This document shows positions 1-25,027 of a stretch of DNA of 64,000 bases, in pieces (position 1 is the first letter of the stretch; the number at the start of each line of letters is the position of its first letter). The notes beneath the pieces were generated by a model. It made no database searches and was not told the DNA's origin. It was given only the letters and a program-made list of their open reading frames with translations. Made by a program: the position numbers and the translations under genes. Source of the DNA: Tilletia caries (Eukaryota > Basidiomycota > Exobasidiomycetes > Tilletiales > Tilletiaceae); assembly GCA_032718865.1 (NCBI GenBank), contig JALUTQ010000009.1, forward strand, positions 347,773-411,772, read 5' to 3'.

Positions 1-2020
1 CTGATTTTCAACTTCCTCAATCGCCTCGGAATCACAGCGTCTCAGCGTTATGCCTATCGAGCTGTGACGTCGATGTCGACACGTATGGTGGAACAAGCTG
101 CTTCCTCGGCTCGTAAGCACGATCGGATACCAATCTTTGTGCTGGACAACATCAACATATACGTTCGCCCCGCTGAGCAACGGATACAGCAGAGTCCTAC
201 CATGCATTCATTCACGATGCGTACAATGTTGGAGCTGGGACCTGAGTTCAAACCCGCAGACCTGACGATCGAAGACTGCGAAGCGCTCAGATTGGCGGAC
301 AAAACAGCACTCCAAGTGAAGGATCTCGAACCGGACGAGTCTTTTTCTACACGATGCAGCACTCATCCACATCAGTGAGGTCCTCTTTCGTCACATGAAG
401 CTCTCTCGCCGACGCCGAAAGCAGATCTTGTCCGAGGTCCACCGAATGCGTCGAAATCACGATATTGACGTTCTCACCACTACTCAGACTGAAATCCACC
501 CTCTCAAACTCGTACAGGAGGACGAAGGCAACTTGTCGGGAATGCAGCAAGTGCTGCATCAGACGATGAGAGATGTGGGATGGAATGTGGGCGACAAGGC
601 TCTTCCAGTGGTGGGAGACCTGCTTACGGTCAACAATATCCTCAGCGTTGTCGCGGTGTCCGAAGACGAGCCCGAACCCATCAATCAACTCAAGTTCCTG
701 GCTCCTTGGGCCGCGCCATGGCACATGCTGCTAGCATGGACCAGGCTGCTCTTTCGTCAGAACTATCTCACTGGCAAGGCAGGGTCAGATCTCTCGCTGG
801 ATCGAGTGCGAGAGATGCTGAATCGCGGAAAGACGGGATTGAACGAGAAGGAGCCTCAGTTCAACGAGGGTTGGGCCCTGCTACGACATACTTTCGAAGG
901 AAGACTTCTTGCGGCCATGAAGTGAGTAGCTTTGTCCTGTCGCTGCGTCTTTATCCGGTCAGCATGCTCATGAAGCTCTTCAATCTTCAGCACCGTTATG
1001 GGAGAGGAATGGAATATAGCAGAATGGACACCTCCGAAGCGCGACTTCTTTGCAGCCTGTCGCCGCCTGTATCGTGATCATATCTCTCCGGAAGCGGTGG
1101 TCACTGCTCAACAGAACAAGGACCAAGTGAAGGCGGCGGCAGGTCTGTTCTTGCGGGACTCTCTCATTGGGATAGAATACGAGGACGCAACGAAGAAAGG
1201 AGACATCGGTCGCATGGCGCAAACGGAGAGATACATGCTTCTCGGCTTCATCGCCATTGGACAACATAACTACAAGAACAATCTGCTCAGTCGCGCCCTT
1301 GCGGCCAAGGTCCTTCCATCCCGGGCCCTGCGAGTCTTGTACGGGGCGTCGTTGGTGAACAGGCATGGAAGAGCGGGAGATTGGGAGGCAGCGGATCATC
1401 TACAGGAGACGTTTGTGAAAGAGGTAAAGGTGAGCACATCGCACCGCGTCCTGAATCAGATGGCGCCAGGCGATGTGCAAGAACTGACTTCACTTGCACA
1501 TGAGCAGGCTACAGCGTGGACGCAGAGTGGTTCCGATCTTGGACAACGCCTGGAAGACCGAATCTCGGCACTGCCGCACGTCTCTCAAGCAACCAAGATC
1601 ACGGCGAGTGCCCAGCTTGGGCTTCAACTTCATATCCGTCAACGCACAGCGAAAGATGCGTCAAGAGACATCACCTTGATACAATCCACGTCAACAGGCA
1701 AACGGCTGTTCACTGTGACTCCGCATCGTGGTCTGGAGGGTGCTGTGCAAAGGAAGAAGGGTCGCAAAAAATATGGTAAAGCTGTTGCAGCCGCATGGAA
1801 AGACTTTCAAACACTTCACAGCAAGATTCATGTCGACGATATCATCTCACAAGGATGGTCCAAACTTCGCAACGGCAGCTTGCGCAAGTTCCAACGCTCA
1901 GGAGATGCACTTTTGATTCGGGAGGCAATGCTGAAGACAGTGGTGCGACAATCGGACGAGGAGGAAAGCAGCGAGTCCGGCGACGAAGGAGCAGGCGATG
2001 GTGTGGATGACGAGCAATAG
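1..2020 (+). pseudogene. DUF6589-family protein, copy A, partial and frameshifted
   Basis: The frame is open from base 1, so the gene begins outside the window. It resembles the basidiomycete DUF6589 family: a DNINIYV block (near 147-170), then a VVGDLLTV block (near 610-636), then a Trp/His-rich segment and an EGWALLRHTFEGR block. An intron at 922-990 joins in frame, and 1,430-1,507 looks like a second, optional intron of 78 nt without stops. The frame breaks once, at a T5 run (342-346); reading four Ts restores a protein aligned with copy B. The C-terminus is acidic (EEESSESGDEG). The function of the family is not established to my knowledge; its position inside an element with inverted repeats suggests a transposase (inference). 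Confidence 0.7.
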
Positions 2021-2116
2021 GACGAAGCGGATAGGGGACTGCGAGCGCGACTCGCTGCAGAGAGGAGCGATGGTGGACTTCTGAACGAGATGTAATCCGG
2101 GCAAAGAGGAGTGAAT

Positions 2117-4971
2117 TCATGCGATGTTCAGAGTGTTGACTGTTGCGTGCGGAAAACCAAACTCACCATCAAGCTTGATGTGTTTTCTTCTCACGCCAGT
2201 CACCACCTTTGGTGAGATCCTTTGCAAAGTCTTGAGCAGTGGACTGACGTGCCCAAGTAAAGCAAGCATCGGAGAGAGATTGCAAAAAAAGAAAGCGGGC
2301 AAGATGTCCGCTTCGGTACCCAGGAGCTGCCGAAGCGGCTCCACGTCGAATCGATGATAGGTTGCTCCTAGTTTCGCTATGCGCCCTGCCATCGCTACGA
2401 TGCGAACCACACTGAGATCAGAGAGAACGCTTTCGGGAGAGGGAAGAAACCCTCCATGCGTTCTTCGCTGCTGAAATAGTTGGTGCCGCCAGTCCAGGAG
2501 ATGCTGCCCAAGGCTGAGACGGAGAGGGGACAGAGCTGCATGTGGGCGTGGAAAACGATAGGCTCTAATTGAGCGGGAAGATTCGGCGGCTTCGGGTATT
2601 TCGCGTATGTCGAACACCCTCAATGGCGAGTCGGGCACGCAAACGTCGCAGCATGACGTGGCTGCACATTCGCGTCGCTCGCTCGATGGCTCGATCCAGA
2701 GACATGCTTGCATGCGGCTGTGAGACGGAGAGGAATCCGACATGAACGGTAATTGCGGTGAGACTGTGTTGTGCGGTGAAGCAAGAAAGAAGAAGGAAGA
2801 CTCGATCAGCTGAGAATGCATCCACTCGAAATCCATCCTCATCGACTCCATCACCACTGCTCGTCGACAGCAGCCACCCTGAACAAAACGCAATAGCGCG
2901 GGCTCGACTTTGGCTCGCCGAGCAGCTTTGGCCGAGGATGGTTCGTCTCCGCCAGTGCCTCTGGCGGCAGAATGGCTGGTATTAGCGTGTTGAGAAGCGG
3001 AGTTGGTGGTGGTGGTGAGGTTGTTCCGGATGTTGTTTGATTCAAAAGCCCACGACTCAGCCAACAAAACAGCGACCCCTGTTTTGCTCAGCTGCCGCAC
3101 GGCACGTCCCGCATGTTGAAAAAACTCGGTCAACGTTCGAGAGAGTCGAAACTGGATGATGAGATCCACATCGGCCACATCGAGTCCCATGAATCCGAAG
3201 ACCGCTCGTTTTGTAGAAGCGCTGCAGCACGTCGGTTTTCAGCGCATTGGTGCCCAGAGACGTGAACGAGCAGACGGTGGAGGCTAGGCAGGGATCCAGA
3301 AAACCCTTAATGGCCTCTGCTGCCTTGTATGCCTCGTTCTTGGTCCGGACATAGATGATTGTCTTGGGTATGTGTTCGGGCTGTTTTTGCAAGGGGGGGA
3401 GAAGAAGGAAGCGAGATCACGAAACGAGGTATTGCTGTAGGACATGGCGCGCACCTCGAGCCTGATGTTGGGACGATCTGTTCCTGCATCACAGGCAAAG
3501 AAGCTTTGTCTGCCAAAGTCCAATACTCTCCAGGCGGTCTTGAGGGTGCTGGAAGGAAGCGTGGCGGTACAGGCAAGCACAGGAACACGGGCTCCAACGA
3601 GGTGCCGGAGCACACGGATCTTGCCAAAGTCGGGTCGAAAGGCTTCTTTTGTGCGGAGACTTTCTTGCGTGCCCCATTCGTCGACGACGTGGGCTTCGTC
3701 AATGAAAAATTCCGCCAACCTTGGCCCGAAAGCTCTTCTGCGAGAGGGCGTGAGACACGGGAGAGTTGGAAATCAGAGTCTCTGGAGAGGCAAAGATCAG
3801 ATTGAACGCGCCACGCTTCAATTCTGCCAGCAGTTGCGCGCGACGGCTCTGCCTCCGTTCTTCTTCCGTAAGGCTGCTGCTCGTCGCACTGCAGGCAAAG
3901 ATGAAGAGAGTCCTGATTAGCACAAAGTCACAAGTCACAACAGATCAAGATGTACATGTACTCTTCCGAGTGTCGACAGCGACTCATTCATTGACCATTC
4001 TGTTCCTGTCTCCAACCCAAGTTCCCAACCGTCTCTGAATCCTGCTCTGCGACCTGCGTCGAGAATCGGGGTTCCGCACCCTGAACCTAGAGCGCATTCA
4101 ATTCCACCCATCCCAATGAACAGATCTCTGAGCCGGAAGTCCAGGTGTCAAAGACTCGGCGGCCAGGCTCCGTTGTACCCATTAAGCCCACAACACGCAC
4201 ACTCTGACCTCTGTACGCAAGACTGAGAACGTACCTTTGACTCTGGAGATCAGGTATAACCTCTCTTCTTCCGCTCAGGGTCTCTGCGTCCAGATTGATG
4301 GCCTTGATCGTTGTACCCTTGAACTTCGACGCCTGTGTGAATCACGATGGAGATATGGACAATGAAGACCCAATAAGGAATATCACAAGTCACAACACGG
4401 TCAGAATTTGGAACTCAGAGATATGGAAACAACAGAATAATGGGCCAGTGTACATGAAAGTGGGACTCACTTGTTCCTCCTGAAGAGATTGCAGCGGAGA
4501 AACGACTATGAAGGTCATGTCAGGGCGAAGCCGGGCGGCAAGCTCCATCAACATTGACTTTCCAGACCCTGTCGCAGACATGACTATGCCATCGTGCCCA
4601 AGAAGCATTCGACGCACAGGTTCAACTTGAAAGTGAGCAAGTTGAAAAGCTGCGTCATTTCGTGCCGCCCGAATCACCGCCTGGGCTCGACGCATGAACT
4701 CCTTCTGGGACTCGACCGAGTGTTCTCCGTCCTGTTCGTGGTCTGATTCGTCCTCCCAATCCTCCTCCTTGTCCATCTCTCCATCTCTGTCGTCTGTGCG
4801 GCTGCGCCTGGGCCTGCAACGACGCGCCGCATCAGTTGACTGCTCCGATGTTGAGGGCTGTTGCGGCTCTGCAGGACTGGAATCTCGAGCTGCTTTGCGC
4901 TTTGACGAACGCTGAGACCGAGTTTGAGGACGTACGTTGTTGCTGACATTAGCGAGCGGCGTGCGAGGCAT
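2117..4971 (-). pseudogene. RecQ-like SF2 helicase, copy A, multiply frameshifted
   Basis: Exon 1 (from 4,971) has a basic and acidic N-terminal tail, then Walker A (SATGSGKS) and motif Ia (IVVSPLQSL). A donor follows EEQ near 4,472. A small exon near 4,345-4,245 and a larger one from about 3,900 continue the helicase core. The large exon carries FASPETL, IDEAHVVDEWG (motif II) and CTATLPSSTLK (motif III), then PKTIIYVRTK and the Q-HAGRAVRQ block (motif VI). The frame breaks at runs of T5, G7, T5 and A4-type sequence on the + strand between about 3,690 and 3,200. Each break is explained by one extra base. The gene is convergent with the DUF6589 gene. Related fungal proteins include telomere-linked RecQ helicases, but the element context fits a transposon accessory helicase better. 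Confidence 0.75.
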
Positions 4972-5396
4972 ATTGGTAACTTGGTACTGTCATGGTATGA
5001 TGGTTCTGGCTCACTGGCAACTGGCAAGGTTCAAACAATGCGTGACAAACGGCAGACGCGTATCAATCTCAAGAACAGATGCGTTTATTGCGCAGTGGTG
5101 CTGAATCCAATCAGAGTGGTTGTGAGTCGTGACGCGTGACTCGTGAGTCGTGACAGAATCTCAGCGGCTCAGTGCTCAATCTTGAAAAAACGAAGTTGCA
5201 AGTCACCCTCCCACACGGTCCCAACGATAGCTAGGATTCTCAAACTCCGCAAGAAGATACTGATACACGCGATCTCAAAATATTGTTACAGAGTCAAGAG
5301 ATCTTCATAAGCTGCATCTCGAGCTGGGAGCTGTGGAAAGGAGGGCATTTGGCCGTTTTGGTCAGCCAGCTCTGCCAGTTTTTGGAAACTCGTCGC

Positions 5397-5424
5397 GTGA
5401 CCCCCCCGACAAGCGGGGGGTCAC
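5397..5424. repeat. Terminal hairpin of element A
   Basis: A near-perfect inverted repeat: GTGAC plus a C-run, a loop GACAAGC, then a G-run plus GTCAC. It is followed at 5,421-5,433 by a second short palindrome (TCACG...CGTGA). The same order, hairpin then short palindrome then element end, occurs at both ends of element B, although the bases differ. It may be a transposase recognition structure. Nothing here suggests a transcription terminator of a host gene. Confidence 0.6.
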
Positions 5425-5436
5425 GGGTCGTGATTA

Positions 5437-13161: not shown

Positions 13162-15990
13162 ATGAAGGAGATGCCTGCGTACGAGGTAAGCAATCACTGG
13201 AGATCTTGTTGCATAGCTGTGCGTACTATGCAAGATCTGACGCCACTTGATATCACTCAGCCGGAACCTGCGAAGAGGCCCATCGAGTTCTTGGACGAGC
13301 CGCAGAGCGTCGCTGGCCCTAGCGCTGCACGAACTCGCGGACGTCCAACAGGGATTCCGATGCTGGATGCAGATCATGATGATGGTGGTGAGTACATGCA
13401 GTGGTGTCCTTGCGTGGAGTATGTTTTTGAACACAGACTCATTACCCTCTCTCTCTGGTTCAGATGCACGCCATCCTAACCCAGCTCCTCCGCCACGGCC
13501 GCCGTGGCTAGACCCCGATCTCCCGCCCCGGCTTGGCCCCGCAGACTACGAACACTACCAGTCCAACCCAGCTCCCCCCTTCGCCGCCACCGCCAACACC
13601 GCAAGATCTCGCACCGCCACCACTGCCGTGGCTGGACCCTACTCTCGCTGAGAGGGATCGGCCCCCCTCCGCCTCCCGGGTTCGAACTGCAACCATCGCA
13701 ACCACCGCAACCGCCGCAACCGCCCACCTCATCATGGGAATCTATTGCGCGGCTACCAGCGAAGGACAAGCAGGATGCCCTAATTCAAGCACTCCGGTCC
13801 AGTCAGAAAGATGACTGGAAGGCCAAAGTCAACAACCTTCTTGACTTTGCGACGAGCTCCTTGGTGGCGGAAGTTCGAGTGGCGATTTTATTGGCGGCTG
13901 CACCAATTTTTCGCACCATGGTTTACGGATGAGTCAAGCAGACTCTCGCGAAGATTGTGGGGCATCACAGGAGAGAGCTGGACGCAAGAATCCGCAAGGC
14001 TTTCAGACGCCTTTTTCTGCGGGCAAGGATTGGGAATGGGCAACGACTGTCCATCAGCCACGAGCCAATCGGGAACAGGGCATCATTTCTGCTTCATCCC
14101 TGCGGTTCAGTCGACAGCAACTCATCTCTCGTAACGACATGGGGCAAAACGTTTCGGATGCGCGAGAAGGGGCACGCTTTTGGGAGTGCAGGACGTGGGC
14201 AACTCAGCGGCTTTGGGATGCATTCGTGGCGCGGGGCTTGAATACCTCCTCCCTCACGAAGCCAAAGGGGTCGAAGAGGGATACGGGAAAAAGAAAGATG
14301 GAGGACGGAGAAGGCAGCAGAGATTCAAAGAAAGTGCGCAAGCTATCTTACGACGCCGACTCTAAGGCAGCCTTCGAGAGACGTGCTGCCAAGGACAAGA
14401 AGAGAGCTCCACCCAAGCGGAAGGAGCCGGAATGCTTACGAGCTTTGCGACTTCGACTCTATCCTTCGGCAGAACTTGGAGCAAAGCTCCGGGAGTGGGA
14501 ATCATTGGCGGCCTCTTTGCGACAGATGGTTCGCGCTCGCCTCCAAAAAGCAAAGGACGTCGGAGAGAAAACGGATGCCTTCTTCTTGGCCGACCAGACT
14601 TGTCTCAGCCAAACGAAATGGAACAAGATGACTGCAGAGGAGAGGGCTTCAGTCGATCAGAACCGTCAACGCCTCATCGAACTTCCCCACAATTTTCAAC
14701 GCGAACAAGTCCTCAAGGTGGCGGCGAACGCTCGAGCGGCGCAGACAAACCTGGAGCGTGGATGGACAAAGTCCTATCGACTTGATTCCGCCGACGAGGA
14801 TGATAAATCCGTTCTGTTCTTCACATCAGACGCCATCGATAAGCGAGGAGCACTATTCCCACGCATCCTCAAGCACATCGACTCCAACCTTTACGTGCGA
14901 GATCGCATGCTGGCTGGACCGGGCGAGCGCAGGAGAAAGCGATCGGACTGGGTCAAGCTCCTCACGGGAGCTTCCAGAAGCTTCAGCATTCACAGGACAG
15001 GCCGTAAGTGGTACTTGCTTCTGAGCCACGACGCTTGGACGGGACCATACACAGAGGAAGGAAAACGGCAGGGGTTGGACAAGGGATGGAACTCGCGCAA
15101 CAAAGCAGTCTTCGAACCGACAAAGCGAGCCGGAAACTGCATCGCATTGGACCCCGGAGCTCGCGATCTGCTTAGCGGCTACGATGCTCAACGGCAGCAG
15201 TTTTTACACTTATCTGACGGGTTTCAACGAGCACATCGAACGGGCCCATGCAAGCATCGCAAGTGCGCAGTCCAAGCTGGACAAACTCAAGAATGAGACG
15301 GGGCCCACGGTGGACACCGATACCGGCAGAAGAAGACGTCGAGCGCGTCGGCGAGTCAACAAGCAAAGAGGTGGCAAAAAGAAGAAGGGCCGGTCTAGCT
15401 CGGCCGAGCAACGCGCTGCCCGCAAGGCCGCCAAGAAGAGCCATCCCCACTTCGTCCGCCCTAAAGAAAGGTCGATTTTGAGAGCACACGAACGGCTTCG
15501 AGTACACATCACACAGGCCCCAAACTGCACCGTTAATGCCCTCGTATCCAACTACGACCTGGTGGTACTGCCGGAATTCATGACCGCGCGGATGATCAAG
15601 CGCCGACGTCGACGGCAAGGAATGCCATATTCCAACGTACCGCAGCGAGAGGCGGCGGTACAAGGCGATGAAGCAAACGAGGAACCAGCTGCCAAGTTCG
15701 TTTTGGCAAAGCGCTCTCGAGCTACCTTAGCTCGTTTTGGACATCGGCAATTTCGAGAGCGGTTGGTGGCCAAAGCACAAGCTGATCCCAACCATCAAAA
15801 GGATGTCCTCGTTACATCGGAGGAGTACACGACGAAGCAGCACCCCTTTCAACGCGGTCTGCACAGCAAGATCGGTGGGAACAAGACCTGGCATTACTGC
15901 CATCTCCGGGGTAAACGTGACAACGTGGGCGCGTTTAACATTCTTCTGCGCGCACTTACGAAAGACGAAGTGCGGCTCAGCTCCCAATGA
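13162..15990 (+). pseudogene. Fanzor (TnpB-like RNA-guided endonuclease), frame broken at homopolymers
   Basis: Recognised by the split RuvC core of the TnpB/Fanzor family. RuvC-I is IALDPGARDLLSGYD (Asp codon 15,150-15,152), RuvC-II is VVLPEF (Glu codon 15,574-15,576), and RuvC-III is RDNVGAFNILLRAL (Asp codon 15,919-15,921). A basic linker helix region lies between I and II. Upstream is the typical LRALRLRLYPSAE wedge start near 14,440. Introns at 13,186-13,260 and 13,388-13,463 fit a start at 13,162. An N-terminal extension of roughly 400 residues is Pro-rich and otherwise unrecognised. Five +1 shifts (two C6 runs, three T5 runs) break the frame; removing one base from each gives a length of 890 codons with no stop. 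The zinc ribbon near 15,831-15,921 keeps only one Cys. Confidence 0.85.
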
Positions 15991-16116: not shown

Positions 16117-16125
16117 AGCAGCGAG
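16117..16125. repeat. Left 9-bp target-site duplication of element B
   Basis: AGCAGCGAG immediately precedes the TTGTCTCG terminus and is repeated exactly at 23,800-23,808, directly after the right terminus. Confidence 0.9.
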
Positions 16126-16206
16126 TTGTCTCGAACGAGACGCCTCCTGCTCCGCCAGGAGGGTCTCGTGTCAAATGTGGAGTCTGCAAGTGGGAACGAC
16201 CGACGG
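16126..16206 (+). repeat. Left terminal inverted repeat of element B
   Basis: It matches the reverse complement of 23,719-23,799. Its order from outside in is TTGTCTCG, a CGAGACG arm, a hairpin with CCTCCTG/CAGGAGG stem, GTCTCGT, then an inner block ending GGGAACGACCGACGG. Confidence 0.9.
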
Positions 16207-17308
16207 TGCGGGTCGACCGCACCCATGAACCTCGTCTTCTCGGCAACGCCCAGCCTTCCTGCTGCTCAACACTCACATCCATCACTGATCACTCGTTGTG
16301 CCTTGAGTGCGGACTCTTACCATCGTGCTGTGAGTATTTGGTGGCGTGTGGCACTGCGCAAAGATCGAACCAACTGCGGATTACGCCTTCATGCTTGTCA
16401 CCCGTTACTGACATGGCTCACGCGTCTTCTCATATACTTCTATCTTTTCAACCCCTCTTCTTCCTTCCTCCTTTCCTATTCCTGTTGCCTTTCTTCTCTT
16501 CCCTTTCACAGGTATCAGGAGCATCGCCGGGCCTTCTTTCTGGTGGTCCCGCCCCGCTGCCGAGCCTGTGTGCTTATTGTTGCCTGCTTCCGTTGTGAGT
16601 GGCTCGGCACCTCCACGGCCCCATGCCCTTCCCACTCTTCATCGAACCTCTCTTCTCAATTGACGTTTAGCCCAACATTGCATTCACAGCTTTTCGAGTC
16701 TCCGTCTCGGCGTCCGCCCCTCTCTTGTGGTTTTCCGGCTCAAGGCTTTACACGCGTTCGTCTCTGCAATATAAGCGATCATAACCCATAGAGCATCACA
16801 CGGGAGACTTCAAGAGTGATATTTAGCGCTATATCTGGAACTGTGAGTAGCAGTCACTTGCCAATGCATCCGCAGATCTCCAGGCTTTTATTTCTTGCAT
16901 TTTGAGCTGGAATTCACTCATCCTCCTATTGATATCTTTATTGCAGTCTTCGGACCAGAAATCCGTCTGCCTTTCTGCTCGTAACAACCATCTGAGAGTT
17001 AGGCCTGGTTGTATTAATTTACTGCCAGCGGCGGGCGGCCTGCGTGTATCCTGCGTTATTACTGTTAACTTGTGAGTATGAAGAAGAATCAGAGTATCGG
17101 ACATACGTTAAGTGTTAAGTGCCAAGTCACAAATGCTCAGCCGACCCTCGTCTACACCGCTGACTGATCAAGTATCTCACACCTCATTATTCCTTGATAC
17201 GTCTATGGCTGCAGACTGTAGATTACAGACTACCCCGCGCGGCCGCGCCTCGCGCCTTCCTCTCACCTTCAGAAATCATATTCAGCAGTCGAATACTCCA
17301 TACTCTCA
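16207..17308. other. Element B left subterminal non-coding region
   Basis: About 1.1 kb between the left inverted repeat and the DUF6589 start. It includes CT-rich stretches near 16,430-16,510. There is no gene with family resemblance. It presumably carries the DUF6589 promoter. Confidence 0.5.
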
Positions 17309-20300
17309 ATGTCGAACCAGGAACGTCGACAGGCTAAGTTGCGCGACATACTGCAATACATACGGCAACAAAACCTCTCCTTCCAAGAGTTCGTTGTCGG
17401 AGTGATAGGTTCGCAGGATCCAGATGTACGACTCTCCTCAACAAAATGGCTCGACAGTCATGCCAGTACGGATGCATCGAAGTACGGTCCGACTGTCATC
17501 CTGTCCACAATGAGCAAAGCAGTGCGGAGTCGAGCAACCCCAGACCACGTTCACGGTTACAATTGTGCTTTGGCGGAATTATCTACCTCGTGTTTTTTAC
17601 AAGAACTGGAAGCTGCCGCGGCCGATAAACGTCTCAAGGTGCCCGCATCTATGAACGACAAGCAAGGCCATAATCTTGAGGATGCGATTGCGGGAGGGTT
17701 CGGCGAGATCGAGACGGTCTACCAGACTTTAATGCCATCAACTATGGCTCTATTCTCGGTACTTGCTGGACGGGTTCCTCATCAACCCCAGGAAGAATCT
17801 CCCAGCCCCAAGGTCGGACAGTCGACTCCAGACTCTCTTCTCTCTACCAATGCCATGGAGAATGGGGATCAGGTGGATTCGATGGAGGTGGATGAGGAGG
17901 ACGTCACGGAGGCTGAAATCCACATGGATAAGAAAGACATGGTGCGTATAATGAGGAGTGAACGTCACCTTGGTGGCTATGCTTGTCACACCAAGGTTCT
18001 GACTTCTGACTGGTCTTCTATCTGGACAGTGTGTCATCACAGCTCTGTCGTGCCTGCTGGGGGCTCGAAGCACACGCATCAACCGCTTCCAGATGATCTT
18101 CGGTACTCTGTTTGCGATGCTACGAGTCCCAAAGCTGGCCCTCAGAGTGATGAACATGTGCGAGATCTGCGTTTCTTACAGCACCGCAGCCCGCGCGATG
18201 GAATCTATCTCATCGTCAGCAACGGACAAAGCCCACCAGCTCATGGAGGTACACCAGAACCGAGTTGCCTTCTTCTTCGACAATGTCAACATATCAGTCA
18301 AGCATGTTGTCCCAAGGCTGACTACTTCGAACGCCTCTATTGCTTTGACATCCCGTACCTTATTCTCCTTACCCCCAGAGTGCAAGGTCATACTTCAATC
18401 CGATGTGGACGCTCTGTCAGGAATCAACAGGGACTTGGCAGGCATCCATTTGCTCCTGAAAAACGTCAGCCCCGGCGAAAACATCAACGACAACGATACT
18501 GTCTCGACTGGAGACTCAAAGGACATCATTCACCGGGCAGCAGTGTTGCACATTGGACGATCCCTGCTTCAGTTCCTGCGCGTCGATCAGTCCCGCCGCA
18601 AGACTCTGATGGCTTCACTTCGGCGTCGAGTCGCCAAGCATGTTTGGAACAAGCTGGAGCCATCAACAACAGTTGTTGTCCCGCTCAAGCTCGTCAACGT
18701 CAATGAGGGTACCGTGGAAGGAACAAAGTCCGTTCTCGAGCAGACCATAGCCGAGCTCAACCTTCGGGCTGGAGTCACCTCTCCACTGCTGGTGGGGGGC
18801 GACCTTCTCACGGTGATGAATGTCAACGCAGCTCGCTACGCAGCTCGATGGGAACTGGACAAACAGAAACAGCTGACGAATATATATGCTGTAGCTGTTG
18901 TGAACATTCTACCACTATACTAAAAGGTGAGACCAGTCTCAACCCAAGTGTCATGGATGATGCATATATCCAACAGTAGCAGGTCCATGGCATCTGCTGT
19001 TGAACTGGGTATATATGATGTTCCACCTGTACGGTGAGACGGTCCGCTCGTGCGCCTTGGATCGCTTGCGTCAAGCGCTCGGCAGAGGCAAAACGGAACT
19101 CGACCTCAAACGTCCTCAGTTCGACGAGGGTTGGGCGCTGCTGCAGCACGTTTGGGAGGGACGAATTCTGTCCGCAATGGGGTCAGTTAAACATCACACT
19201 TCACAGCCGTGTGTTTCCAGAAGCGTTATGCTGATGCTAGCCCCCCTTCCTCCAATTCTGCGTACATCTTGTAGACACGAGCTGGCAACAGCCGGAGAGA
19301 CCATCGATGATTGGAACCCAGACACCAAAACGTTCTTCGACGCTATCGATAGACTGTACGAGAATCATCTCACCCAGAACGCCCTTTTTCAAGCCCGGGA
19401 TGCCAATGACAACGATCGAGCGACCTCAATTTTGTTCATGCGGGACTGTGTCGTGGGTCTTGAATACGCAGAGGCAATCAAAGCGGGCGACCTTGGAAGA
19501 ATGGCAGAGGTAGAGAAACCTCTCTGCCTATCGTTCTACGGCGCGGGTCAAACCAAATACGGGTCGTTGCTTTTGGATCGAGCCCTCATCGACCGTGAAC
19601 AACCAGTCGTGGCGAAGACTCTTCGAGCAGCTCAGTTGGTCAATCTTCACGGGCGTAAGAACGGATGGCAGGGAGCGGACCTCTATCAAGAGCAGCTCAA
19701 TCGTAGATTACTGGTGAGTATGGGTTCATCGGCCTTCTTCATGCTTAGACCTGTTGCACATCAATGCTTGCTCTCTTACCCTTAATCTCTCTGCTCTCCT
19801 CTTGCATCGCAGATGTTTCACCCTAGTCAGTCACCAAATCACACAGCCATTCGATATGAAGACAGGATGTCAGCGTTTGTTGGGTTGGGGCAGAGGCTGG
19901 TCGCTAAGGTACAACGCTCGCTGGACATGATGACGGACTCTCGGCACAAGAAGTCAGAAGAAGAAGGCATGCGAGGCGGACATTAGGCTCCTGGCAAAAG
20001 ATGCAGATACACATCGTCTGAACGTTGCCCAAGGGCCAAGAGCGTCCTCGTACAGAACTACTGCCATCCTCGAACAACTCAAAGAGGAAAAGCAAGATGT
20101 CGGCAATGGAACAAGCGAAGCAAGTGTGGAGCGAGAACAAGGAGCAGACGACGGCAAAGGATGTGATCGAGATGGGATACCTGAAGCTCATTGGGGGTGC
20201 ATTACAGCGATACAAAACCAAAAACAGGGATCTTCGAGCGCGGGACGTGGACGTTTACCAGATTGCTACTGGACGGGAGAGCCCGGAGCCGGGACCAAAC

Positions 20301-20387
20301 GACGGGCCACACGGCCGCGCAGAGCAGGGAAATTCTGGAGCAGGAGGGGCGGGAGAAGCTCTTCCGGACGACGACGCCGTGAACTAG
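17309..20387 (+). pseudogene. DUF6589-family protein, copy B (putative transposase), frameshifted
   Basis: Exons 17,309-17,941, 18,030-18,926, 18,977-19,181, 19,275-19,713 and from 19,813 join with standard GT-AG introns (88, 50, 93 and 99 nt). The N-terminus (RQAKLRDILQYIRQQNLSFQEFV) is the typical helical DUF6589 start. Family blocks follow: FFFDNVNISV, LLVGGDLLTVMNV, AGPWHLLLNWVYMMF, RGKTELDLKRPQFDEGWALLQHVWEGR. The C-terminal block aligns with copy A. One base is missing near 18,903 (VV-EHSTTILK), and at least two more frame changes occur between about 19,940 and 20,110. There is no known activity for the family that I can cite; an RNase H-fold transposase role is inference from the acidic blocks and the element ends. 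Confidence 0.75.
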
Positions 20388-20541
20388 GCTGAACATCAGC
20401 TGCTGGAAGATGCCGGCTGTCGTCAAGAAGAGATGGACGAAGGCGAAGTCAGTGATGACTGATGCATGAACATGATGGGAATATACAGCAACTACATTAC
20501 CACCATCCCAAATAAACTCACATGCAATGTTTTGGAGACTT

Positions 20542-23282
20542 TTAAGTAGGACGTGATGGTCGCGGTGCTGGGTGGCTGAGGAATGCACCTCTGGAGCTGA
20601 TGTGATGCATGACCTCCGTGTTTGAGGCCGAATACGATTTGCACCACTGGTCAACTGCAAGGGCTAGAGAGTCGATGATGCCGGGATAGATCAGAGAGAC
20701 CAAAGGACCTAGGTCCTCCACCAGCAGCTCGGTAGTAAGTTCTTCTTCCCGACCACGACTGGCAAGGAAGCGCGTGGTCAGAGCAAGGATGCGCTCTGCC
20801 ACAAGATCAGGTAAGAGCGCGCGGGAAGGCAGAAGGGAGGGAAGTTGCCGGCTCTTGTGTGTTGTAGATCGCCAAAGGATCAAAGCAGCTTTGAGGCTCT
20901 GCTGTACCACCAAGAACTTCGGATGGGCCGGTGGAGCTGACACGACCGAACGAGAGGATGAGGAGCTGGCGGCGGTCGTGAGGGCTGTACCCAGAGTGGC
21001 TGATGCTGTAGAGCTGGAAAAAGCTGCTGCTGCCAGACTGCCGGAGCAGGGGCGCGAGGTGCAGCAAAATTCGGCTGTGACAGATGTCGGTGGTTTGTGT
21101 GTGGAGGCAGCGAGAAGAAATTCGTTCGAAGGGTTGTCCGAGCACTCCGCAATGTGGTCTGGAATAGTCCAGAGCCCACCTTTAACACATCGCAATGAGA
21201 ACAAAACCTCTTCGACCGTCCGCAAGTTGAGGCGGGTCTCCGAAATGATCGTTTGCCTGACGCATACGTTCAAGTCGGTTATCCGCCGAAGACTTGCTGA
21301 GAGGGCGCTGCGCTGACGCTCGGCGTGAGCGGAGATCGTCATGGTCTCGTTTCCGGAGTCAACGACGCTCCAACGCTGCGCCAGTAGGCTCGAGCGTCCG
21401 GGTTTCGACTTCACGCGCATGGTTCGCCCAAAGTGTTGAGCCAGATCGAGAACGTCGTTGGGGATCTCGAACTGAACGACATGATCGATGTCTGGGAGAT
21501 CGATGCCCAGACCTCCTGCTTCAGTCGCAATCAGGACACGCACGTGGCCTCCAGGCTGAAATGCGTTCGAGATCGTGTCCAGCTTAAATTCAGAAGAGGA
21601 CAATGCTGTAAATGGTCGGACGATACCATCAAAGGCAGGTCCGAAGCTGTCGAAATGATGCTGCAGGGCTGCCGCCGCCTCGTACGCCGCCGCTCTCGTC
21701 CGCACGTAGATGAGGGTCTTTGGGACCGCCTGTGGGGAGGATGGGGGCGATGTGAAGAGAGAGATTAGATCATTGAAAGAGCCAGCTGAGTGTGCCAGGG
21801 GGGAGACCGTGTAAGCAACGTTCGGTCGATCTACGCCGGCTTCGATCGCGAACGTGTGTTTTGCTCCAAAATCGAGCAAAGGCAGTATGGAACGAACGGT
21901 CGCCGCAGGAAGCGTTGCAGATACTGCCAGAAGGGGAAGGTGAGCTCCGAGACGAGTGCGTAAGGTCTGTATCCTGCTGAAAGCAGGGCGGAATGGCAGG
22001 GCAGATCTCGCCGAGGGTGTAAGACCCCACGTCTGGACCACATGAGCCTCGTCGACGACCAGGGCTCGCAGTCGACCTTTGAAGATCGGATCCTTCAAGA
22101 GGTCCTGCACAGATGGATTGTCGAGGACTGCCTCAGGCGACGCAAACACCAAATGAGCGTGCTCCGAGATGATCATTTTGCGAAGATGCTGTCGTCTGAG
22201 CTCTTTGATTCGGTTGTGGCCGACTTCAGATTCTGCACTGCTAATGAAGAATTGACGAACACATGAACAAGACAATGGTAAATCAGCAAACTGAACGCAT
22301 TTGTCAACAGCGGATCAGCGATGACAGAACGTAGCCCATCAGACCTTCAAGCCACCCCACATTCGACAAAGAAAAGACATTCTCCATCAGATGCCAGCTG
22401 CCGCAGGCTAGCAGAGTAGCAGGCGTCGGCCGTCACCACGAAGCCATCCTGCATTCTCTGTGCCTTCCAACACCAAACTGTGCATCGAATATGTAGTGAC
22501 ACTCCATCCTCCATACGACCATACCTCTCTGTCTGCCGGCTGCCCTTCCCTCACGCTAGGTTCTCGGAGCTCGTCCACCCACTCACTCACTGACGCACCG
22601 AGCCCCTACCCACAACAACACGTCTGAGACTCAGGAGACAGGAAGATACTCACTTTTTGACCGTATAGAGAGACTCAGAGGTAACTTGACTGAGAGACAC
22701 GGCCCGAATCTTGGTGTCGCGGTATTTGCCGACCTAGATGAGAACAAGCAATGAGGCAAGGAAGAGAACGCAAGGTCAGAGAGAGTTAACGCGAGCATGG
22801 CAAATTGGCAGGTAACATAGAACAGCGCGACGCAACATCCAGGGACTACTCACCTGGTCGGCTTCTAGTGCGATGAGAGGACAGATAACCATGATGGTGT
22901 GCTGTGGATATAGAAGTGCCAGCAACTCCCATATGAGGGATTTCCCAGATCCTGTAGCGGCTCCATAGATGCCGTCCCAGCCGTGATACGTTCGCAATGC
23001 AGCTTCGAGCTGCTCTTCGCGAGGCTGGAATTTGGGATCGCCCCGGAAGACGCGAACAAGATCGATTAAGGCCTGTACTTGCTCGGCAAACGGCGCATCT
23101 GCGTTAAGGGCTGGAGGGGCACTCTCTGACGAGACTGTGTTCATGCTTGTTGGTGCGCCTGTCGCCTGCTTTGCACCGCCAGCGCGATCCACATCTTGAC
23201 TGAGCCGCTCACTGCGCCGCCGCTTTCGCGCAGGTCCTTCTTCGTCATCAGAGACTCGATTTGTGATATCTTTAAGAGCCAT
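20542..23282 (-). CDS. RecQ-like SF2 DNA helicase of element B
   Basis: Three exons: 23,282-22,854, 22,733-22,654 and 22,240-20,542. They join in frame to about 735 residues. A basic N-terminal tail (RKRRRSERL) precedes the RecQ-type Q-motif region (FQPREEQLEA), Walker A ATGSGKS (residues 109-115), ICPLIAL (Ia), LVFASPEAV, VVDEAHVVQTWG (II), AVSATLP (III), KTLIYVRTR (IV), ATEAGGLGIDLPDIDHVVQF (V) and QHFGRTMR (VI). Motif VI departs from the usual GRAGRDG. No RQC or HRDC domain is evident; the C-terminal third is Ser/Ala-rich. The gene is intact, convergent with DUF6589 and contained within the inverted repeats, so it is likely an element-encoded helicase helping excision or replication of the element (inference). 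Confidence 0.85.
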
Positions 23283-23718
23283 AGAAGATGAAGGCTGATA
23301 GGCGAGAGCTGTAAAAGTAGATACTGGACGCTGGATGTACGAGTGATGGTCAAGACTCAAGACAAGATCAAGATTCAAGAGACGCGTGAGAGTTGAGACT
23401 GCTAATGAGATGGCGTGTCGTCGCAAACTTGCGATATCAGACAGGCAGACCTCAGACCTCGGATTTCACGGCTCCGCTCCCTCCACAATCCACATCCAGA
23501 AAGAGCAGCTGGATAGCCAAACCTCATTTCTGCAGCCTGCGCGCTGAATTTTCCACTTTGTTCAGGGCTGTGTGGAAGGCCACCAGGACCATCAATGCAC
23601 CTCAAATTTGAACAGGAAGAACATGTACACACATTGAGAAGCTGTCCAAAATTATGGGGGAACTTGTTAAGTGAGATCAAGAGCAATCTGGACTCCAAGA
23701 GGGGGCAAAACGAGGTTG

Positions 23719-23799
23719 CCGTCGGTCGTTCCCACTTGCAGACTCCACATTTGAGACGAGACCCCCGCGCCACGACGGGGGGCGTCTCGGCCGAGACAA
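23719..23799 (-). repeat. Right terminal inverted repeat of element B
   Basis: The reverse complement of the left repeat. Its hairpin stem uses CCCC/GGGG-type pairs where the left repeat uses CCTCC/GGAGG, so the pairing is kept while the bases change. It ends ...CGAGACAA at 23,799. Confidence 0.9.
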
Positions 23800-23808
23800 A
23801 GCAGCGAG
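23800..23808. repeat. Right 9-bp target-site duplication of element B
   Basis: AGCAGCGAG, identical to 16,117-16,125. Confidence 0.9.
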
Positions 23809-24256
23809 GCTCGCACGGTTCGGGATCGGGCGAGAGGATGGAAATCCGGCTCTTTGTTCTGCCGCTCTTCGGGAACTGCGAATGCGAACTGGGAAGTTGG
23901 AACTGGGAACTGAGAACTACTCTGGGAACTACATAACAATTGCACGACCACCATGGCCGATTTATACCTGATCCCTCCCGACGCTTCCGACCACCTTCTG
24001 CAAGTCGTCCCCACTGGGAATGACAGGAGGGGAACCATGCTGAACGAATGATGAGGTGCAGGATGAAGAGCTCCCAGCCAGGTTCCCGCAATGAAGTTGG
24101 GCCCAGATTCATGTCGGCGTGTTGGAGCTCACTCTTCTCATATCCTCACCTTCCTTCTTGACAGGCTTGCAGAATGTAGATGCCCCTACTTCCAGAGACC
24201 CTTCCACATCGTGGATCTCCAACCCGCACCCATCGGTCCCAGCCCTGGCGCAAGCC
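23809..24256. other. Intergenic region with GGGAACT repeats
   Basis: Before element B inserted, this sequence followed the Fanzor 3' flank directly. It holds repeated GGGAACT/GGAAGTT motifs (about 23,870-23,935) of unknown meaning. It leads to the F-box gene. Confidence 0.45.
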
Positions 24257-25027
24257 ATGCCATCCTTCCTCGAAACTCCGTCAGCGTCCGACATGCAACA
24301 AGCTCATGTCCCAGATGAGGATGCTGGTTCTGTGCCAGATGAGGACGCTGGTACTTTGGCTACCAGCTCGGCAGCCCTTCCCAACCGAGCTGCAGCGTTC
24401 AGCCTTCTCGATCTGCCCAACGAGCTGCTCTTCCCGATCCTGGACGGCCTGGACTATCGAGCTCTCAATGCCTTGCGCAGCACATGCAAGACGCTTCGCC
24501 AGATCCTCCTACTTCCGCGGTTCGATCACGCGCTCTTCCGCAGTGGTTACGAGGATCACAGGGACTACGCGTTGGGAAATGTGATCTTTGAACACCAGAA
24601 GCGCGACAGATTCTCAGGGTTGGTGAACATGCGCGAGAGCATGCATAATTCTGCGGTACCACCCTTTCCAGTAGAGGTTCATCCGATATTGCACTCACTC
24701 GGCCAGCTGGATGAAGGACGAGAACAGCAGACAACCTCGCCCTGGGATTATCAACAAACACGACCCGTCTGGCTCGAGGAGACAGCCACCCGGCCCCCAC
24801 TGTCTTCTCTTACGATCCGAGCTTACTGGCCACATCCCTCTATGCCCGTGGACGGTCGCGGCCGCGGAGGTGCTGTCACGGTAGAACAGGTCCTTTTCGT
24901 GCTTCTGGCGCCTTGTCCATGCAAGGCCGGCAAGCTTCCAAGGGCCTGTTCAGGGGACGGATCTGCACCCTTCTTATTTGGGTGGGAGGATCTCGTGGCG
25001 ATACTGTTCCCATTTCGATGGTTGTGA
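24257..25027 (+). CDS. F-box protein
   Basis: An F-box motif is clear: FSLLDLPNELLFPILDGLDYRALNALRSTCKTLRQI (near 24,400-24,505), followed by LLLPRFDHALFRSGY. F-box proteins bind Skp1 and recruit substrates to SCF ubiquitin ligases. The N-terminus has a tandem PDEDAG duplication (24,310-24,356). The open frame ends at 25,027, but an overlapping frame stays open to 25,263, so the true C-terminus may differ through an intron or a frame change. I chose the ATG at 24,257; an earlier exon is possible because a TTGACAG acceptor-like site lies at about 24,164. The target is unknown. It sits between a transposon and a decayed gene fragment and may itself be accessory. Confidence 0.65.
   Translation: MPSFLETPSASDMQQAHVPDEDAGSVPDEDAGTLATSSAALPNRAAAFSLLDLPNELLFPILDGLDYRALNALRSTCKTLRQILLLPRFDHALFRSGYEDHRDYALGNVIFEHQKRDRFSGLVNMRESMHNSAVPPFPVEVHPILHSLGQLDEGREQQTTSPWDYQQTRPVWLEETATRPPLSSLTIRAYWPHPSMPVDGRGRGGAVTVEQVLFVLLAPCPCKAGKLPRACSGDGSAPFLFGWEDLVAILFPFRWL

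Follow-up and report, generated by a model that had tools for sequence, protein, structure and literature searches.

A probable AcademH-type DNA transposon carrying a DUF6589 gene and a RecQ-like helicase gene in Tilletia caries

Why should a gene of the DUF6589 family, for which Pfam gives no known function, lie next to a RecQ-like helicase gene between long inverted repeats? The question is raised by a 64-kb stretch of the Tilletia caries genome (hereafter the window), which forms the final 64 kb of contig C9 in the genome searched here (38.1 Mb, 40 contigs). We suspect, with a probability of roughly 0.8, that the element at window positions 16,126-23,799 is an AcademH-type DNA transposon, in which DUF6589 is the transposase and the RecQ-like helicase is a fixed co-travelling partner.

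Ends and relatives of the element

A preliminary description had proposed a DNA transposon with exact ends, inverted repeats of about 81 bp and a 9-bp flanking duplication, carrying DUF6589 on the plus strand and a RecQ-like helicase on the minus strand. All of this stands. The terminal inverted repeats are 81 bp each and identical at 68 of 81 positions, both begin with the tip TTGTCTCG, and the exact duplication AGCAGCGAG flanks the element on both sides. By comparison, the runner-up inverted repeat in the 9-kb stretch around the element is 24 bp long. The focal feature is a DNA transposon, and the evidence does not separate excision, as in the cut-and-paste type named in the preliminary description, from a replicative route.

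The element had also been called complete, which is true of its structure and not of its DUF6589 gene, where an 80-bp insertion lies between copies of a 5-bp duplication (GTAGC). This insertion is absent from a sister copy (C35:1525162-1538484), whose aligned pieces are 98-99% identical to the focal element; its tips agree with the focal ones, and it is flanked by a 9-bp duplication of different sequence, GGCGGACCG. A 5,732-bp insertion (L059 1605-7336, C35) interrupts the left inverted repeat of the sister. Given its identical 251-bp direct terminal repeats and 5-bp duplication GTCTC, this insertion is a recent long terminal repeat (LTR) retrotransposon. Thus, both copies are approximately complete in structure, and neither looks intact.

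Genome-wide, we found at least 75 matches to the DUF6589 profile (PF20231) and at least 67 to the focal helicase, which merge into 48 DUF6589 loci and 52 helicase loci, all of these counts being lower bounds. Further pairs of the kind that the preliminary description anticipated are common: a helicase lies within 5 kb of DUF6589 in 42 of the 48 loci found, and the two genes are convergent in every case (42/42). Six DUF6589 loci are without a helicase and ten helicase loci without DUF6589. Chance alone predicts about 0.7 pairs, and we reject a fortuitous association of the two genes. The named proteins most similar to one DUF6589 relative of this genome come from Tilletia in 17 of 18 hits, with one fully identical stretch in T. 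controversa. Their divergence also runs in parallel (r 0.91, 0/5000 permutations) across 13 pairs that include several near-identical copies.

Both ends were read for 13 DUF6589-helicase pairs, and nine of these have inverted repeats and are flanked by an exact duplication, which measures 9 bp in six (focal, sister, C6, C32, C36b and C7) and 10 bp in three (C28, C36a and C27), so that bounded ends, too, recur at other DUF6589 loci. The C33 copy has tips, with no duplication found; C23 has a 72%-identical inverted repeat of 184 columns, again with no duplication found; and in C4 and C34 no inverted repeat was recognised at the ends read. Three kinds of tip occur among the pairs, namely TTGTCTCG/TAGTCTCG, TAGTCTGG and TAATCAC.

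The joined flanks of the nine copies with duplications were queried against the genome for empty sites. Uninterrupted sites were found for C28 at three places across the full 210 bp (two at 100% identity), and uninterrupted junctions for C27 at five places and for C36b at at least five. One empty site was read for each of these copies, and each holds a single copy of the duplication. The empty sites that the preliminary description proposed to look for thus exist for three other copies; in the genome searched, the focal copy yielded none, and neither did the sister, C6, C36a, C32 or C7. Separately, the sequence to the left of the C7 copy (C7:2096569-2096679) recurs at several other places, each match stopping at the insertion junction.

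The two proteins and a possible mechanism

A Pfam scan identified DUF6589 in two plus-strand reading frames of the gene (E-values 3.4e-36 and 2.7e-10). The predicted structure of a DUF6589 member from a mushroom (pLDDT 89) has an RNase-H-type transposase fold, and its nearest solved structures are the hAT (Hermes), P element, Transib/RAG1 and ISCth4 transposases, at approximately 8-13% identity. Given this low identity, and given that a Foldseek search at E up to 0.001 gave no match, we read the likeness as one of fold and not as membership in any of these groups. The structure libraries compared have no recognisable Academ entry, so that its absence among the fold neighbours excludes nothing. 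An alignment-free model of a Tilletia maclaganii DUF6589 reached a pLDDT of 36.9 and was not used. The presumed acidic triad residues are conserved in 64, 68 and 69 of 69 DUF6589 sequences, respectively. The evidence points to DUF6589 acting as a transposase, the predicted fold of the family being transposase-like and its catalytic residues putative. This link is apparently new: no mention of DUF6589 was found in the literature searched, where the identifier PF20231 alone does occur, and members of the family are annotated as ordinary hypothetical proteins across mushroom-forming fungi.

The minus-strand gene encodes a Pfam Helicase_C domain (47.7 bits), whereas DEAD scores below its cut-off. 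Against the NCBIfam model recQ_fam it scores 72.6 bits (cut-off 219.8, the NCBIfam helicase cut-offs being set for bacterial and archaeal proteins), and its best solved relatives are RecQ (E 2.9e-10), followed by RECQ5, WRN and BLM. The part at 20542-22314 also scores 76.8 bits against DpdF, a bacterial defence helicase, which is slightly above recQ_fam and far below the cut-off.

In the scenario that we favour, DUF6589 would bind the terminal inverted repeats as an RNase-H-fold transposase and cut at the TTGTCTCG tips. It would then join these tips to a target cut with a stagger of 9 bp, or of 9 or 10 bp in the case of its relatives. Gap filling by the host would create the target duplication. 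The convergent RecQ-like helicase would most likely open the DNA of either the element ends or the target site, and hairpins in the repeats could be one of its substrates.

Hairpins, remnants and surroundings

Most of the 13 positions at which the two focal repeats differ fall within a stretch that could form a hairpin. Nineteen ends were examined for such structures, several of them from near-identical copies; the interrupted left end of the sister and the right end of C27, with too little sequence, were left out. A stem of at least nine pairs with at most one mismatch is present in 17 of the 19 ends, compared with 4.5% of 400 random 75-mers, and the folding z score is -1.5 or lower in 15. 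Between ends, four stem pairs in total, in two families, are altered on both sides. The arms of these predicted hairpins thus seem to differ between the two ends of an element and yet mostly keep pairing, which is apparently new.

Several results weigh against the hairpins. Four of the 19 ends are weak, all on the right side (focal -0.65, C7 0.14, C28 0.44 and C36a -1.31), and another folding test gives the focal right repeat a z of 0.02 for 81 nt and of -1.35 for 47 nt. The observed covariation score was reached by 36 of 500 shuffles in one control and by 7 of 500 in the other, on five sequences each, and these controls are thus modest. We therefore treat hairpins with changing arms as a lead. 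A doubtful extension of it is that structure contributes to how DUF6589-RecQ elements recognise their ends, with hairpin arms that vary between left and right ends and from family to family, pairing being largely preserved, and with the accompanying helicase acting on the structured ends. If it were true, and if DUF6589 were unrelated to the Academ transposase, these elements would make up a superfamily apart, both structure-marked and helicase-assisted.

Four further places carry focal-type ends, one of them C28:926671, and at the other three, on C32, C40 and C1, no short non-autonomous copy was found. End remnants include a 1,237-bp right-end fragment on C32 and a 97-bp end on C40. An isolated 42-bp piece at C1:1294259 (L007 1501-1542), which lies within other sequence, is identical to the focal left tip including the whole hairpin, and is possibly a remnant of excision or deletion.

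The window also holds a second related element (Table 1), whose left end lies beyond the window and whose right tip is TAATCAC. On its left, the focal element adjoins a Fanzor/TnpB-like reading frame (15025-15990) that scores 22.6 bits against PF07282 and 26.9 bits against NCBIfam guided_TnpB, both below cut-off. The 3' part of this frame occurs at nine places, seven of them on contig C34, at 98-100% identity. Neither focal flank led to an empty site: a repeated Fanzor-like unit stands at the end of the left one, and the right one is unique. An F-box reading frame (24095-25027) follows closely on the right of the element.

Table 1. Features of the focal transposon and of a related element in the window (window coordinates)
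Feature	Position	Strand	Basis or detail
Left target-site duplication AGCAGCGAG	16117..16125	.	Sequence read
Left terminal inverted repeat, 81 bp, tip TTGTCTCG	16126..16206	+	Tip shared with sister copy
Putative hairpin-forming stretch, left repeat	16136..16168	+	Folding, stem search and covariation
DUF6589 gene, presumed transposase, several exons	17309..20387 (approximate limits)	+	PF20231 at 18495-18842 and 18976-19710; fold of a family member
80-bp insertion in DUF6589 gene, 5-bp duplication GTAGC	18896..18975	+	Sister copy lacks insertion
RecQ-like helicase gene	20542..23285 (approximate limits)	-	Exons include 22776-23285 (GSGKS) and 20542-22314 (DEAH, GRTMR)
Right terminal inverted repeat, 81 bp, tip TTGTCTCG	23719..23799	-	Sequence read
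Putative hairpin-forming stretch, right repeat	23757..23789	-	Stem search and covariation; weaker in one folding test
Right target-site duplication AGCAGCGAG	23800..23808	.	Sequence read
Second related element, TAATCAC family	1..5436	+	DUF6589 329-1444 (+), helicase 2963-3733 (-)

Place among known transposons

The preliminary description suggested that no named kind of transposon fits such an element. In this it went too far, because AcademH, reportedly introduced by Kojima (2020, Mob DNA 11:15) for RecQ-helicase transposons with 9-10-bp duplications, does fit. As general background, the nuclease of the related AcademX is of the XPG type, Kolobok transposons target TTAA, and Mutator-like elements (MULE) also make duplications of about 9 bp. 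MULE/MuDR was rejected given that a Pfam scan (E up to 0.01) of the reading frames of the gene gave only DUF6589.

By published accounts, target duplications are 9 or 10 bp in AcademH and 3 or 4 bp in AcademX, which has a nuclease instead of the helicase (PMC10045372). A RecQ helicase is present in Academ (PMC3627910), fungal Academ copies with DEAD and recQ-type domains are often annotated as host genes (PMC6416283), and AcademH has a low copy number in Basidiomycota (PMC10799480).

The alternative that survives best, and that we nevertheless consider unlikely, is that DUF6589 elements form a superfamily of their own, with a transposase non-homologous to that of Academ and with the RecQ helicase and the 9-10-bp stagger gained independently. 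No paper tying DUF6589 to Academ was found in the literature searched, and helicases have been captured more than once, given that KolobokH also carries RecQ (PMC9587614). The RecQ partner, the 9- or 10-bp duplication and the fungal host all agree with published AcademH.

Far less probable is that the element is a KolobokH, the RecQ-bearing kind of Kolobok transposon. KolobokH indeed encodes RecQ and has only fungi as known hosts; in it the transposase domain is followed downstream by RecQ (PMC9587614), whereas here it is a separate, convergent gene on the other strand. The nine duplications are 9-10 bp long and none is TTAA, and we reject this candidate. A telomere-linked or other host RecQ gene, of the sort known near telomeres in Ustilago maydis (PMC7593156), lying beside DUF6589 by chance within chance inverted repeats, is the least credible of all and is rejected in view of the 42 convergent pairs against 0.7 expected, the exact duplications, the empty sites, the failure to find the telomere repeat TTAGGGTTAGGG in the window, and the position of other pairs far from contig ends (C7 at 2.10/2.69 Mb and C32 at 0.76/1.46 Mb).

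If DUF6589 is read as a transposase, many false host genes could be removed from fungal annotations, and its profile could be used to find elements of the AcademH-like kind. Because the Tilletia genome offers numerous related copies together with empty sites and constant gene pairs, it is well suited to asking what makes a RecQ helicase necessary for certain transposons.

Among known systems, hAT (Hermes), P element, Transib/RAG1 and ISCth4 are the nearest in predicted fold, and KolobokH is like the focal element in being a fungal transposon with a RecQ helicase. AcademX belongs to the Academ superfamily, as AcademH does, and differs by its 3- or 4-bp duplications and its nuclease in place of the helicase; it is rejected, given the 9-10-bp duplications of the focal element and its relatives. 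The element agrees with AcademH in its terminal inverted repeats, in having a RecQ-type helicase encoded by a second gene, in the length of its target duplications (9 or 10 bp) and in its host among the Basidiomycota, and the predicted fold of DUF6589 would supply the DDE/RNase-H-type transposase. No difference was found in the features compared, which are those of the published description of AcademH. The element behaves like an AcademH transposon and most likely belongs to that type.
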